Assembly (NCBI RefSeq): GCF_029643425.1
Contig: NZ_CP119106.1
Coordinates: forward strand, 310,001 to 374,000
DNA from: Isoptericola sp. AK164
GTDB taxonomy: Bacteria > Actinomycetota > Actinomycetes > Actinomycetales > Cellulomonadaceae
Direction of reading: 5' to 3'
DNA length: 64,000 nucleotides
Positions 17,997-46,224 of the stretch are shown here, piece by piece. Position 1 is the stretch's first letter. Every line of letters begins with the position of its first letter. Below the pieces are notes generated by a model. That model saw only the letters and a program-made list of their open reading frames with translations, was not told the origin of the DNA and did no database searches. A program made the translations under genes and the position numbers.

Positions 17997-18725
17997 ATGA
18001 CGACGACACGGCTCGGGCCCGCCCACCGGCTGGACGCCGGCAGGGTCCGTGACCTCGTGGCCCGCGTGACCGGCGACGAGAAGCACGATCCCAGCGCCCA
18101 CTCCACGCTCGACGTCGTGCGGGTCCTGTACGACCAGGTGCTGCACGTCGATCCCGACGCGCCCGACGACCCGGACCGCGACCGGTTCGTGCTGTCCAAG
18201 GGCCACGGGCCCGCGTCCACCTACGCCGTGCTGGCCGCCCGCGGCTTCTTCCCCGAGTACTGGCTGGACGACGTCGCCTCGTGGGACTCGGCGCTCGGGC
18301 ACCACCCGGACCGCACCCTCGTGCCCGGCGTCGAGATCGGCAGCGGCTCGCTGGGCCACGGGCTCCCGCTCGCCGTCGGCATGGCTCTCGGTCTGCGGGT
18401 ACGCTCCCCGGCACGCGTCGTGGTGCTCGTCGGGGACGCCGAGCTGGACGAGGGCAGCAACGCCGAGGCGATCCAGGTCGCGGGGCGGTTCGCGCTGGGC
18501 AACCTCACCTGCGTCGTCGTCGACAACCGCAGCGACGGGCACGGCTGGCCGGGCGGCGTCGCGGCACGGTTCGCCGTCGAGGGGTGGACGACGACGGACG
18601 TCGACACCCGCTCGGACGACGGGCTCGCGGCCGCGTTGCGCCGGGCCGAGCCCGACCGGCCCACCGCCGTCGTCGTCGACACGACGCGGGTCGCCACGGC
18701 CACGGGACGGACGGTGACGGCATGA
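17997..18725 (+). CDS. Transketolase, N-terminal subunit (split form)
   Basis: The 242-residue protein is the TPP pyrophosphate-binding half of transketolase: SKGHGPASTYAVL carries the catalytic His, GSGSLGHGLP follows, and GDAELDEGSNAEAIQVAG with CVVVDN is the metal/TPP motif (GDxE...N; the usual third residue Gly is Ala here). Transketolase moves two-carbon units in the non-oxidative pentose phosphate pathway. The start ATG 17997 is supported by the SoxR promoter six bases upstream; nine extra codons upstream would overlap the operator. It overlaps the C-terminal subunit gene by 4 bases. A split rather than single-chain enzyme suggests a paralogue of the housekeeping transketolase. Confidence 0.88.
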   Translation: MTTTRLGPAHRLDAGRVRDLVARVTGDEKHDPSAHSTLDVVRVLYDQVLHVDPDAPDDPDRDRFVLSKGHGPASTYAVLAARGFFPEYWLDDVASWDSALGHHPDRTLVPGVEIGSGSLGHGLPLAVGMALGLRVRSPARVVVLVGDAELDEGSNAEAIQVAGRFALGNLTCVVVDNRSDGHGWPGGVAARFAVEGWTTTDVDTRSDDGLAAALRRAEPDRPTAVVVDTTRVATATGRTVTA

Positions 18726-19711
18726 GGGGCCCCGGCACGAGCGCCGGCCCGGACCTCGACATGCGCACCCGTTTCTACGCCGAGCTCGACCCGCTGCTGG
18801 ACGCCCACCCGGACCTGGACGTCGTCCTCGCCGTCATCGGCGCCGCCCAGCTCGCCCGGGTGGCGGATCGTCACCCCGGCCGCGTGGTCGACGTCGGCAT
18901 CCGCGAGCAGGCCATGATCGGCGTCGCCGGCGGGCTGGCGCTGACCGGACGGCGCCCCGTCGTGCACACGTACGCCCCGTTCCTCGTCGAACGCCCCTAC
19001 GAACAGCTCAAGATCTCGCTCGGTCACCAGGACGTCGGCGCGATCCTCGTCAGCATCGGCGCGTCCTTCGACGCGAGCGCCGCGGGACGCACCCACCAGG
19101 CCCCGGCCGACGTCGCCCTCGTCGCAGCACTGCCCGGCTGGACGGTCCACGTGCCCGGGCACCCGGACGAGGTCGCCGCGATCCTGCGGGCCGAGGCCGG
19201 CCGGACGGGACGCGTCTACGTCCGGCTGTCCGGGCAGCGCAACGAGCGGCCACGGCCCACCGACGGACGGGTCCACCTGGTGCGCGACGTCGCCGACGGA
19301 CCCGGCGCCGCTCCCGCGCCGCTCGTGCTCGCCGTCGGGCCGATGCTCGACACGGTGCTCGCCGCCACCGCCGACCTGCCGGTGCGGGTCGCGTACACGG
19401 CGACGCCGCACCCCCTGGACGCGGTCGGGCTGCGGCGGCTGGCCGGGCCGACGCCGGCGCTCGCCGTCGTCGAGCCGTACCTGGAGGGCACGAGCGCGGC
19501 CGCCGTGGCGGCGGCGCTCGCCGACCGGCCGGCGCGCGTCGTCCACGTCGGGGTGCCCCGGGACGTCGAGCTGCGGCGGTACGGCTCGCCGGACGACCAC
19601 GCCGCGGCGCACGGGCTGGACGTGGCGGGCGTGCGCCGTCGGGTCGAGACGTTGGTCCCTCGTCGCGTCGGCAGTTCGTCGTCAGGTCGGCAGTCCGAAC
19701 TGCCGACCTGA
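18722..19711 (+). CDS. Transketolase, C-terminal subunit (split form)
   Basis: The 329-residue protein has the pyrimidine-binding domain with the catalytic Glu in VDVGIREQAMIGVAGGLAL, HTYAPFLVERPYEQLK, and a C-terminal transketolase domain (HPLDAVGLRRLAG ... VVEPYLEG). It pairs with the preceding gene (ATGA overlap) to form an alpha2beta2 enzyme. The last ten codons run into a long palindrome (19666-19727), so the C-terminal tail VGSSSSGRQSELPT is encoded by that element and may be a late extension. Confidence 0.88.
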   Translation: MRGPGTSAGPDLDMRTRFYAELDPLLDAHPDLDVVLAVIGAAQLARVADRHPGRVVDVGIREQAMIGVAGGLALTGRRPVVHTYAPFLVERPYEQLKISLGHQDVGAILVSIGASFDASAAGRTHQAPADVALVAALPGWTVHVPGHPDEVAAILRAEAGRTGRVYVRLSGQRNERPRPTDGRVHLVRDVADGPGAAPAPLVLAVGPMLDTVLAATADLPVRVAYTATPHPLDAVGLRRLAGPTPALAVVEPYLEGTSAAAVAAALADRPARVVHVGVPRDVELRRYGSPDDHAAAHGLDVAGVRRRVETLVPRRVGSSSSGRQSELPT

Positions 19712-19727
19712 CGACGAACTGCCGACG
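19666..19727. repeat. Perfect 29-bp inverted repeat, built from a 9-nt word (palindrome P1)
   Basis: 19666-19694 and 19699-19727 are exact reverse complements around a 4-base loop. Each arm holds the word GTCGGCAGT twice (19667-19675 and 19686-19694) with a 10-base linker TCGTCGTCAG. The tkt stop codon lies inside the right arm; the BCCT gene ends convergently 27 bp later. It can act as a bidirectional terminator, but the internal word structure is not needed for that. Confidence 0.85.
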
Positions 19728-24364: not shown

Positions 24365-25882
24365 ATGAGCACCCAGCGTTTCCCCCTGCCGGACGTCGGT
24401 GAGGGGCTGACCGAGGCCGAGATCGTCGAGTGGAAGGTCGCCGTCGGCGACACCGTCGAGGTCAACCAGGTCGTCGTCGAGATCGAGACCGCCAAGTCCC
24501 TCGTGGAGCTGCCCAGCCCGTGGGCCGGCACCGTGACCGCGCTGCTGGCCGAGGAGGGCACCACGGTCGACGTGGGCGCCCCGATCCTCGAGATCGGCGA
24601 CGGCGCGGCACCGGCCACCGAGCCCGCGGCACCGGCCGCGCCCGTTGAGGGGACCGCCGCGCCGCAGAGCCCGTCGAACGGGGAGTCCTCCGGGTCGGTG
24701 CTCGTCGGGTACGGCACCGCCGACGCCGGGGCGGGCGGACGGCGCCGGCGTCGGCGCGGGGGGACCCCTGCGCCGACGGCCGAGGCCGCCGCGACGCCGC
24801 CCCCGGCTCCGGCTGCCCCGGCCGCTCCGGCTGCTCCGGCTGCCCCGGCACCGGCCGCCGCCGCGACGCCGGCCCCGACGCCGGAGCCCCCCGCGCCGTC
24901 CGGCCCCTCGATCGACCGCGCGATGGTGAGCGTGCCGGCGGCCTCGTCCCCGGCCGACGCACCGTCGTCGACCCGGGTGCGGGTGCTGGCCAAGCCGCCG
25001 GTGCGCAAGCTGGCCCGCGACCTGGGGGTCGACCTGGCCTCCGTGCACCCCACCGGCCCCGGCGGGATCGTCACCCGTGAGGACGTCACCGCCCACGCGG
25101 CGGCCGCCGAACCGCGGGCGCTCGCGACCTACCCCGGTGACGACCAGCCCTGGATGGCCTCGGGCGGCGTCTCCGACGACGGTCGCACCACCCGCGTCCC
25201 GGTCAAGTCCGTGCGCCGGCGGACCGCGGAGGCGATGGTGGCCAGCGCGTTCACCGCCCCGCACGTGACGGTCTTCCACACCGTCGACGTCACGAAGACG
25301 ATGAAGCTCGTCGAGCGGCTCAAGAGCGACCGTGACTTCGCCGACGTGCGGGTGACGCCGCTGCTCATCGCGGCGAAGGCGGCGCTGCTGGCCATCCAGC
25401 GGCACCCGGAGATCAACGCGAGCTGGGACGACGAGGCGCAGGAGATCGTCTACCAGCACTACGTGAACCTCGGGATCGCCGCGGCGACCCCCCGGGGCCT
25501 CGTGGTGCCCAACGTCAAGGACGCCCACCGCCTCGAGCTGCTCGGGCTCGCCCAGGCGCTCGGCGAGCTGACGGCGACCGCGCGGGCCGGACGCACGACG
25601 CCGGTGGACATGTCCGGGGGCACGTTCACCATCACCAACGTGGGCGTGTTCGGCATCGACACCGGGACGCCGATCCTCAACCCGGGGGAGTCGGGCATCC
25701 TCGCGTTCGGCGCGATCCGCCAGCAGCCGTGGGTGCACAAGGGCAAGATCAAGCCGCGCTGGGTCACCCAGCTCGCGCTGAGCTTCGACCACCGGCTCGT
25801 CGACGGCGGGCTGGGCTCGCGCTTCCTGTCCGACGTCGCGAAGGTGCTGGAGGACCCCGCGCAGGGGCTCGTCTGGGGCTGA
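24365..25882 (+). CDS. Dihydrolipoamide acyltransferase (E2)
   Basis: The 505-residue protein has one lipoyl domain (1-80) with the lipoylated K44 in EIETAKSLVELPSP, a long Ala/Pro-rich flexible linker (about 85-205), a peripheral-subunit-binding domain (VLAKPPVRKLARDLGVDLASVHPTGP..., about 210-245) and the acyltransferase core with catalytic H476 and D480 in FDHRLVDGG. It passes the acyl group from E1 to CoA. GGAGGAACG precedes the ATG. The linker includes a basic GGRRRRRRGGT patch near residue 122, unusual for such hinges. Palindrome P2 lies downstream. Confidence 0.93.
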   Translation: MSTQRFPLPDVGEGLTEAEIVEWKVAVGDTVEVNQVVVEIETAKSLVELPSPWAGTVTALLAEEGTTVDVGAPILEIGDGAAPATEPAAPAAPVEGTAAPQSPSNGESSGSVLVGYGTADAGAGGRRRRRRGGTPAPTAEAAATPPPAPAAPAAPAAPAAPAPAAAATPAPTPEPPAPSGPSIDRAMVSVPAASSPADAPSSTRVRVLAKPPVRKLARDLGVDLASVHPTGPGGIVTREDVTAHAAAAEPRALATYPGDDQPWMASGGVSDDGRTTRVPVKSVRRRTAEAMVASAFTAPHVTVFHTVDVTKTMKLVERLKSDRDFADVRVTPLLIAAKAALLAIQRHPEINASWDDEAQEIVYQHYVNLGIAAATPRGLVVPNVKDAHRLELLGLAQALGELTATARAGRTTPVDMSGGTFTITNVGVFGIDTGTPILNPGESGILAFGAIRQQPWVHKGKIKPRWVTQLALSFDHRLVDGGLGSRFLSDVAKVLEDPAQGLVWG

Positions 25883-25915: not shown

Positions 25916-25987
25916 CGCGAGATCGACCCACCCGACCGAGATCGACGCACCGTCAGTCGATCTCGGTCCCGGTGGGTCGATCTCGCG
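25916..25987. repeat. Intergenic palindrome with 9-10-9 word structure (palindrome P2)
   Basis: Outer arms 25916-25932/25971-25987 (17 bp) and inner arms 25934-25946/25956-25968 (13 bp) are exact reverse complements; only a 1- vs 2-base junction differs. Each arm holds GAGATCGAC twice (25919-25927, 25938-25946 on the left) separated by 10 bases. The loop is 9 bases. It lies between the E2 stop and the CopD-CtaG start, on the path of one transcription direction. Confidence 0.85.
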
Positions 25988-26054
25988 CGGAGGCGGCGAG
26001 GGTCACAGCGACGGCGGTCCGGGACGTCCCCGCACGCCGCCTACCCTGGATGCT

Positions 26055-28094
26055 GTGACCGCGCCCGCCGCCCCGACGACCCGCCCCGCCCCGGCGCCCA
26101 CGTCGGCGCGCCCCTGGTGGCTGATCGCCGCCGGGCCGGGCGCCGTCGTCGTCGCCCTGCTCGCCCTGCTGGCCGCCGGCTCCTACTCGGGCGCCTTCGA
26201 CCCGCTGGGGACCTTCAGCGACCCGGGGCCGGCGGTGCGCTGGGGGCTGCCGGCCGCGACGGTGCTGTCCGAGCTCGCGCTTGCCGTGACCGTGGGCGGC
26301 CTGTTCGCGGTCGCGTTCCTGCTGCCGCGCGGACGGCACACCGACCGCGTCCTGCTCGTGGCCGGCTGGGCGTCGAGCCTGTGGGCGGTCGCCGCCGTCG
26401 TCCAGCTCGTCCTCAGCTACTCCTACGTCTCGACGATCTCCCTCGCCGCGGAGACCTTCGGGCAGGGCCTGTGGCAGTTCGTGCTCGACGTCGAGCTGGG
26501 GCAGATCGGGCTGTGGACGATCCTGCTGGCTGCGGTCACGTCGGCCCTCGCACTGGGGGTGCGGGGTCCGGTCGGAGCCCTGTGGACGGCCGTGCTGCCC
26601 GGGGCGGCGCTCGCCCTGCAGTCCACGACCGGGCACGCCGCCGGGGCCGTCAACCACGACCTGGCCGTCGGGGCGATGCTGCTGCACCTGGTCGGCGCGG
26701 CGCTGTGGGTCGGGGGGCTCGCGGCGCTGCTCGTCGTGGTGCTCACCCGCACCAGGAGGCGCCGGGACGACGACCTCCTCGCCGCGAGCGCGGTCGCCCG
26801 GTTCTCCCCGGTCGCGGCCTGGTGCTTCGTCCTGGTCGCCCTGTCCGGCCTGATGAGTGCCCTGATCCGCATGCAGCACCTGGACGACCTCGTCACCCGG
26901 TGGGGCGTCCTGCTGCAGGCCAAGGTGCTCCTGCTGCTCGCGCTCGGTGCCTTCGGCTGGGCCCACCGGCGCTGGGTCGTCGGTCGGCTCGCCACCGACC
27001 CCGGCCGCGTGCGACGGCTGTTCTGGCAGCTCCTCGCCGCCGAGCTCGTCACCATCGGGGCGGTCTCCGGCGTCGCGGTGGCGCTCGGGTCGACGGCGCC
27101 GCCGGTGCCGGACGAGGAGCTCGTCGACGCCTCGCCCGCCTTCCAGCTCACCGGCTACGCCCTGCCGCCCGAGAACACGCTGGGCAACTACTTCACGCAG
27201 TGGAGCTTCGACCCCCTGTTCGCCGTCGCCAGCGTCGCCGGGGCGCTGGTCTACGTCACCTGGGCGCTGCGGCTGCGCCGCCGCGGCGACCGCTGGCCCC
27301 TCGGTCGCACGATCTCCTGGTGCGCCGGCATGGCGATCATGGTCTGGGTGACGAACGGCGGCCCCTCGGTGTACGGCCACGTGATCTTCTCCGGGCACAT
27401 GACCCAGCACATGATCCTGGCGATGGTCGTCCCGCTGCTGCTGGTCCTCGCGGCCCCCGTGACGCTGCTGCTGCGGGCGGTCCCGGCCCGCAAGGACGGC
27501 TCCCGCGGGCCCCGGGAGTGGGTGCTCGCGATCGTGCACTCCCGCGTCGGCAGCTTCGTGGCGAAGCCGGTCGTGGCGGCGGTGGTCTTCGCCGGCGGCA
27601 TGATCGCCTTCTACTTCACGCCGGTGTTCGGGTGGGCGCTGTCCAACCACGCCGGGCACGTGTGGATGATCATCCACTTCACGCTCGCCGGGTACCTGTT
27701 CGCCAACGCTCTCGTCGGCATCGACCCCGGTCCGCAGCGCCCGCCGTACCCGCAGCGGCTGCTCCTGCTGTTCGCCACCATGGTGTTCCACGCCTTCTTC
27801 GGGGTCGTGCTCACCACCGGCACGTCGCTGCTCGTGGCCGACTGGTTCGGGAACATGGGACGGCCGTGGGGTCTGCCCGCGATCGACGACCAGCAGCTCG
27901 GCGGCGCCATCGCCTGGGGGATCGGGGAGCTGCCCACGCTGGTGCTCGCCGTCGTCGTGGGCGTGCAGTGGGCCCGGTCCGACGAGCGGGAGGCCCGCCG
28001 CAGCGACCGTCGGGCGGAGCGGGACGACGACGCCGAGCTGCGGGCCTACAACCGGATGCTGGCCGACATGGCCGAGCGCGACGGGCGCGACTGA
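26055..28094 (+). CDS. CopD-CtaG fusion: copper uptake/cytochrome c oxidase assembly protein
   Basis: The 679-residue protein has about 15 transmembrane helices in two parts. The N-terminal half (to about residue 350) resembles the CopD copper-resistance membrane protein (GHAAGAVNHDLAVGAMLLHLVGAALWVGG with His and Met). The C-terminal half is a CtaG/Cox11-unrelated assembly domain (ISWCAGMAIMVWVTNGGPSVYGHVIFSGHMTQHMIL, HPxxQ-like metal ligands). Actinobacterial members supply copper to the aa3 oxidase. TACCCT ends 7 bases before GTG 26055, so it is probably leaderless. It is convergent with the sugar ABC genes. Confidence 0.9.
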   Translation: MTAPAAPTTRPAPAPTSARPWWLIAAGPGAVVVALLALLAAGSYSGAFDPLGTFSDPGPAVRWGLPAATVLSELALAVTVGGLFAVAFLLPRGRHTDRVLLVAGWASSLWAVAAVVQLVLSYSYVSTISLAAETFGQGLWQFVLDVELGQIGLWTILLAAVTSALALGVRGPVGALWTAVLPGAALALQSTTGHAAGAVNHDLAVGAMLLHLVGAALWVGGLAALLVVVLTRTRRRRDDDLLAASAVARFSPVAAWCFVLVALSGLMSALIRMQHLDDLVTRWGVLLQAKVLLLLALGAFGWAHRRWVVGRLATDPGRVRRLFWQLLAAELVTIGAVSGVAVALGSTAPPVPDEELVDASPAFQLTGYALPPENTLGNYFTQWSFDPLFAVASVAGALVYVTWALRLRRRGDRWPLGRTISWCAGMAIMVWVTNGGPSVYGHVIFSGHMTQHMILAMVVPLLLVLAAPVTLLLRAVPARKDGSRGPREWVLAIVHSRVGSFVAKPVVAAVVFAGGMIAFYFTPVFGWALSNHAGHVWMIIHFTLAGYLFANALVGIDPGPQRPPYPQRLLLLFATMVFHAFFGVVLTTGTSLLVADWFGNMGRPWGLPAIDDQQLGGAIAWGIGELPTLVLAVVVGVQWARSDEREARRSDRRAERDDDAELRAYNRMLADMAERDGRD

Positions 28095-46110: not shown

Positions 46111-46137
46111 GACGACATTCTGCCCGCTCCCACCCGC

Positions 46138-46199
46138 GTTGTGGGCATGAAATCTGCAACGCCGCGCCGGAGATCACCTGCAGATTTCATGCCCACAAC
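46138..46199. repeat. Perfect 21-bp inverted repeat of low GC (palindrome P3)
   Basis: 46138-46158 is the exact reverse complement of 46179-46199, with a 20-base GC-rich spacer. The arms, which contain GGGCATGAAATCTGCA, are under 50% GC in a region over 70%. It lies between the ptsH start and the aldo/keto reductase stop, both minus-strand genes. Confidence 0.85.
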
Positions 46200-46224
46200 C
46201 CGGGGCCGGGGGTGGCGGGGCTTC

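Follow-up and report, generated by a model that had tools for sequence, protein, structure and literature searches.

On our comparison of related genomes, the palindrome P2 of Isoptericola sp. AK164 is one of a family of modular hairpins dispersed at gene 3′ ends; its most likely function, which we favor with moderate confidence, is to stop transcription arriving from either direction. The first-pass annotation of the window (the whole 64,000-nucleotide stretch analyzed) had taken the location of P2 between codirectional genes as an argument against a terminator role. The location was described correctly, but the codirectional setting does not speak against termination, and a modular hairpin terminator is the best reading. 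We prefer it to the earlier objection because of the placement of the family and its exchange with ordinary hairpins.

Table 1 Positions in the window of P2, its parts, its neighboring genes and the sister palindrome P1.
Feature	Position	Strand	Details
Upstream gene, 2-oxoacid dehydrogenase E2 acyltransferase	24365..25882	+	PF00198, PF00364, PF02817
P2 palindrome, four-word hairpin	25916..25987	.	72 bp
Outer word GAGATCGAC, P2 left arm	25919..25927	+	
P2 left linker	25928..25937	+	10 bases; pairs with the right linker, one base less than the right linker
Inner word GAGATCGAC, P2 left arm	25938..25946	+	
P2 apical loop	25947..25955	.	9 bases; from the fold
Inner word GAGATCGAC, P2 right arm	25956..25964	-	
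P2 right linker	25965..25975	-	11 bases
Outer word GAGATCGAC, P2 right arm	25976..25984	-	
Downstream gene, CopD/CtaG-type membrane protein	26055..28094	+	PF05425, PF09678
P1, sister palindrome, word GTCGGCAGT, own family	19666..19727	.	

Each arm of P2 carries the word GAGATCGAC twice, as first noted; we write it with nine letters, and its length is about 9–10 bases. The spacing described along with it, 19 bp between word starts across a ten-base linker, applies to the left arm, while in the right arm the words start 20 bp apart. P2 begins 33 bp past the E2 stop codon, and the CopD/CtaG start lies 67 bp beyond its end. As RNA, it folds to −61.1 kcal/mol (z −10.6), with none of 200 shuffles equally good, and as in a canonical intrinsic terminator this strong stem stands right behind a gene. 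The two neighboring genes show no obvious common theme of the kind that a regulon operator would suggest. Separately, the interval between P2 and the CopD/CtaG start (25988–26054) contains a GTCACA-N33/34-TA(G/C)(G/C)CT block that 7 of 18 genomes keep behind the E2 gene and that is perhaps an operator or a putative promoter.

A shuffling test had been proposed as the means to refute the layout. By chance alone, a word repeat within a single arm proved unlikely but not impossible: nine-base repeats arose in dinucleotide shuffles of the left (218 of 20,000) and right (87 of 20,000) arms of P2 and, under the same test, of a P1 arm (594 of 20,000), and 685 of 100,000 genomic 31-mers contain an internal nine-base repeat. 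A chance origin of the P2 layout is excluded because a conserved family exists.

Searching the window’s genome (3,576,703 bases) with P2 returned ten full-length copies plus shorter partial matches. One further variant there retains only the outer words; at this shared site (901899, locus L132), the inner part is unrelated yet perfectly paired, as would result from replacement of the middle. Within Isoptericola, 8 of 18 genomes have P2 matches at E 1e-5. Scanning one genome per species across 84,980 species (records close to the window’s genome may be absent from this set) for patterns with three exact words, a requirement that would miss degenerate copies in other genera, yielded 31 stretches, all from Isoptericola, Cellulosimicrobium or Actinomyces massiliensis. 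A family-level search that scored four candidates per genome found P2 matches in at least 10 of 221 genomes and at least 2 of 25 genera. Words are the same across species and linkers species-typical; where both words of a family arm are exact (80 arms), the linker measures 11 bases in 57, 10 in 22 and 12 in one. We also considered spread by plasmids or phages and rejected it, since one P2 copy used as query had no match in either collection.

To place the copies relative to genes, we used gene calls from a codon-usage script trained on the window’s genome and checked on the window. With identical cores counted once, 60 distinct P2 copies comprised 32 in codirectional, 20 in convergent and 4 in divergent gaps, 3 at contig edges and 1 in a called gene. 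Fifty-two of the 56 placed copies thus lie in a codirectional or convergent gap and therefore beside a gene 3′ end. By genus, the counts were 16 codirectional, 16 convergent, 3 divergent and 1 within a gene in Isoptericola, and 10, 3 and 0 (codirectional, convergent, divergent) in Cellulosimicrobium; A. massiliensis, where gene calls are less certain (11 of the 60 copies), gave 6 codirectional, 1 convergent, 1 divergent and 3 at contig edges. The distance from stop codon to P2 has a median of 20 bp (n = 72 gene ends) and is at most 50 bp in 58. For comparison, we drew gaps and ordinary hairpins from 864 kb (the window, its own genome, G004 and G011). Intergenic regions of 75–1,500 bp were distributed differently from P2 (144 codirectional, 39 convergent, 122 divergent; p 2e-7), whereas ordinary hairpins were split as P2 is (37, 36 and 4; p 0.44), also when four that carry family words were taken out (37, 32 and 4; p 0.64). 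The inference drawn earlier from the codirectional setting is therefore not borne out. Counting against a terminator are the four divergent copies, one of which (O4) has a site common to three species.

The terminator reading is favored mainly because P2 can stand where some relatives carry ordinary terminator-like hairpins. At P2’s own site, 2 of the 18 genomes have P2 and one (G003) a P2 remnant; four have other word families, with GAGATAGAG in G004 and G011, GAGGTAGTAC in G010 and, in G014, a P1-like palindrome in which one word is clean. The site holds a long plain palindrome in G007 and short hairpins in three genomes, and no hairpin was found there in the remaining 7 of 18. The 380534 site is the clearest case: an ordinary hairpin (score 10–20) in eight genomes, P2 in one, GAGGTAG words flanking a hairpin in two (G004 and G011), a 39-bp plain palindrome in one, no hairpin in 5 of 18 and one further genome not comparable. 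At 1113067, P2 and an ordinary hairpin occur in one genome each and other long palindromes in two; no hairpin appears in 14 of 18, all of which have at most 43 bases before the next gene. At this gene end, which bears P2 in the window’s genome, L340 (G013) and L345 (G003) are long palindromes opening with (A)ACGAGCGTGC. The gene downstream of the compared sites is often not the same between species. The genomes lacking a hairpin at these sites speak against the terminator reading. These comparisons nevertheless show that P2 can occupy a gene end that in a relative holds an ordinary terminator-like hairpin.

In the proposed mechanism, the transcribed P2 hairpin would end the transcript of the preceding gene, here E2, and would shield the next transcription unit. 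The word may be fixed by copy-to-copy conversion within a genome or by a protein reader and not by any need of termination. A terminator needs no invariant word, so the terminator reading leaves the fixed word unexplained. The way in which transcripts of high-GC actinobacteria end at hairpins lacking U-tracts is, to our knowledge, unsettled. TTT within 12 bases was found at 0 of 72 P2 exits, and likewise at 0 of 93 ordinary hairpins here. RNA-strand signatures were sought in the codirectional P2 copies (n = 32), where G-U mismatches did not significantly exceed A-C mismatches (26 versus 19; p 0.37) and sense and antisense folds were even, 15 to 15. Ordinary codirectional hairpins gave 9 G-U to 1 A-C (10 to 3 and 9 to 0 at other thresholds); their contrast with P2 is weak, with p values of 0.075, 0.33 and 0.019 from 9 to 13 informative mismatches. 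Ordinary convergent hairpins were balanced (8 to 11, 12 to 15 and 6 to 9). The G-U versus A-C test thus gives RNA-level selection in P2 no support.

In the comparison of words and linkers for coevolution that had been suggested at the outset, words are nearly invariant and linker arms covary. The comparison covered the 35 of 60 distinct copies with a 67-base core, setting aside L168 (67 bases, five substitutions) and 24 copies of other lengths. Standard pairs make up 94.7% of pair cells, and 14 of 30 pairs have changed on both sides. Double-changed cells number 113, versus 40.4 in shuffles, none of 500 attaining 113, and no more than 15 in slid controls. Two to four Watson–Crick types are seen at the most variable linker positions, and one at most word positions. 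The two arms of each P2 copy therefore change together, which would fit selection on the hairpin or arm-to-arm copying alike and by itself does not discriminate between them.

Copies also resemble each other within some genomes. Mean identity is 0.86 within one genome (117 pairs), 0.831 for orthologs (10 pairs, including one at 0.985 from close species) and 0.802 for unrelated copies from different genomes (466 pairs), the means being compared without a significance test. The within-genome likeness comes from G001 (0.878), G009 (0.901) and G003 (0.853); the window’s own genome shows no homogenization, its copies having an identity of 0.829 among themselves and 0.829 to those of G001. At a shared pair of sites ~1.1 kb apart, the I. 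chiayiensis cores are identical to each other and the two G003 copies are mutually alike. This pattern points to conversion between P2 copies in some genomes, with recent re-amplification as an alternative. BLAST between loci showed that, of the ten I. chiayiensis loci fetched, eight have a position in common with a P2 copy of another species, and P2’s own site is also occupied in I. chiayiensis. Flanking DNA at shared places is mostly 80–87% identical (range 69–95%).

P1 and P2 had been described as sharing an architecture without sharing sequence. This description holds, and each proves to be a family in the genus, with further word families of the same layout. In P1, the word starts at 19667 and 19686 in one arm and at 19699 and 19718 in the other, 19 apart in each. 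Matches to the P1 family are present in 13 of the 18 genomes (E 0.01). Its 30 copies in fetched loci (9 convergent, 10 codirectional, 7 divergent, 4 within a called gene) show a weaker 3′-end bias than those of P2. The called plus-strand gene at 18722–19711 has its stop within P1, and the last part of its reading frame is thus made up of P1 sequence. With a GAGATAGAG element as query, matches were found in G009, G010 and G011 (3 of 18 genomes at E 0.001); the element is also present at the E2 site of G004, and G004, G005 and G010 contain GAGGTAG forms. GAGATAGAG arrays (L257–L296; G009, G010 and G011) reach 4+4 words at steps of mostly 21–22 bp. In 40 fetched loci, 34 of 39 lie between convergent genes and 5 of 39 are codirectional, and the TAG of the outermost word is the stop codon at 26 of 73 gene ends. 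The two arms of some of these arrays repeat linker units in a different order. The layout is thus wider than P2, which represents its two-word form. An ungapped scanner found no palindrome with words repeated at 19–22 bases in a G011 and G004 sample (20 stretches of 20 kb), but this scanner under-detects: it missed P2 in the window, and a search by family turned up 70 matching pieces in G011.

The alternative that survives best, although we regard it as unlikely, is that P2 acts as DNA, with a protein binding four words about two helical turns apart so that at gene ends the array is a roadblock or relieves supercoiling. It is modeled on gyrase-binding BIMEs, which are held to act so in Escherichia coli and would offer an analogy. 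Near invariance of the words within and between genera combined with free linkers would fit such a role, as would the balance of G-U and A-C and the long, mostly convergent GAGATAGAG arrays. However, the binding protein is putative only, word spacing differs among families (19–22 bp), and pairing persists in the linkers although a protein that binds duplex DNA would have no need of it. Somewhat more speculative is a dialect system in which the words GAGATCGAC, GAGATAGAG, GAGGTAGTAC and TCGGCAGT would each have their own DNA-binding partner. The ~20-bp-spaced paired arrays would then form a nucleoprotein terminator or insulator, with words switching between species at one gene end while the hairpin layout is kept, and with copies kept alike by conversion in some genomes.

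Less probable still is that P2 is a selfish dispersed palindrome, mobilized by a transposase or template switching and tolerated at 3′ ends since insertion there would do little harm. About ten scattered copies in the window’s genome, a patchy spread among species, species-typical linkers and the rearrangement of linker units in some longer arrays would be expected of such an element. However, its places are common to species, with flanks as similar as given above, its arms are kept paired, and the copy searched lacks plasmid and phage matches. REP/BIME elements, too, are palindromes scattered between genes, frequently at 3′ ends, with a short unit in alternating orientation, whereas P2 has two words per arm and several sites retained between species. 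A REP/RAYT origin was ruled out. In a search limited to Y1 transposases, the RAYT-type profile PF01797 matched none of the 18 genus genomes while matching 5 of 14 control genomes. Moreover, the GTAG or CGTC end tag that defines REP/RAYT elements in the available part of PMC3733652 is not fixed in the flanks of 11 aligned copies, where P2 ends in CG(CG)AGATCGAC and its complement.

That the word serves in DNA uptake or as another sequence recognized genome-wide, often paired at terminators like the DUS of Neisseria, is very improbable and was rejected: inverted gene-end pairs and species-typical words do resemble DUS dialects, and the word occurs ten times in the window (six outside P2) versus 1.09 expected from dinucleotide shuffles, but at 42 occurrences in 464 kb it is not in excess over nine similar codon-like words (8–142), and DUS number thousands per genome, as excerpts of PMC3630211 describe both them and their dialects. 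Neisseriaceae DUS pairs at terminators share with P2 an inverted word of ~10 bases, a gene-end position and species dialects, whereas P2 has direct repeats in each arm, tens of copies and no excess of the word outside palindromes relative to codon-like words. As far as the accessible portions of PMC3733652 and PMC3630211 go, the placement of BIMEs and of DUS inverted pairs resembles that of P2.

Returning to the modular terminator, P2 shares with intrinsic terminators the position just past stop codons, a strong GC-rich stem and, in some relatives, a place held by ordinary hairpins. It differs in the fixed word given twice per arm, the dispersed family with common sequence and the lack of a U-tract (as in ordinary hairpins here) and of a G-U bias. 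Titles and abstract openings, with few subscription journals among them, contained no description that we recognized as these elements. P2 is probably a transcription stop built from interchangeable parts. A near-invariant word, compensated linkers and interchangeable word dialects at gene ends amount to a natural experiment: sister species carry different versions at one gene end, which makes the termination-relevant parts and any word-reading factor directly testable.

Further palindromes were observed alongside these families. One dispersed family has the arm GTTGTGGGCATGAAATCTGCA (GATTTCTGCA in one copy), variable loops and no word repeat within the arm; its sites are 46133–46204 in the window, 13227–13288 in L090, 10472–10533 and 7099–7166 in L093 and 18640–18696 in L094, with a cousin in G011 (L199, 6769–6830). 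A 60-base palindrome (L081, 1712–1771) has TTCGGTC twice per arm, 19 apart, and perhaps represents a further word family of the window’s genome. Finally, short palindromes of the form GGTCGAGCC(T/C)GTCGAAACC occur in several copies in G004 (L210, L215 and L216) and G011 (L205).
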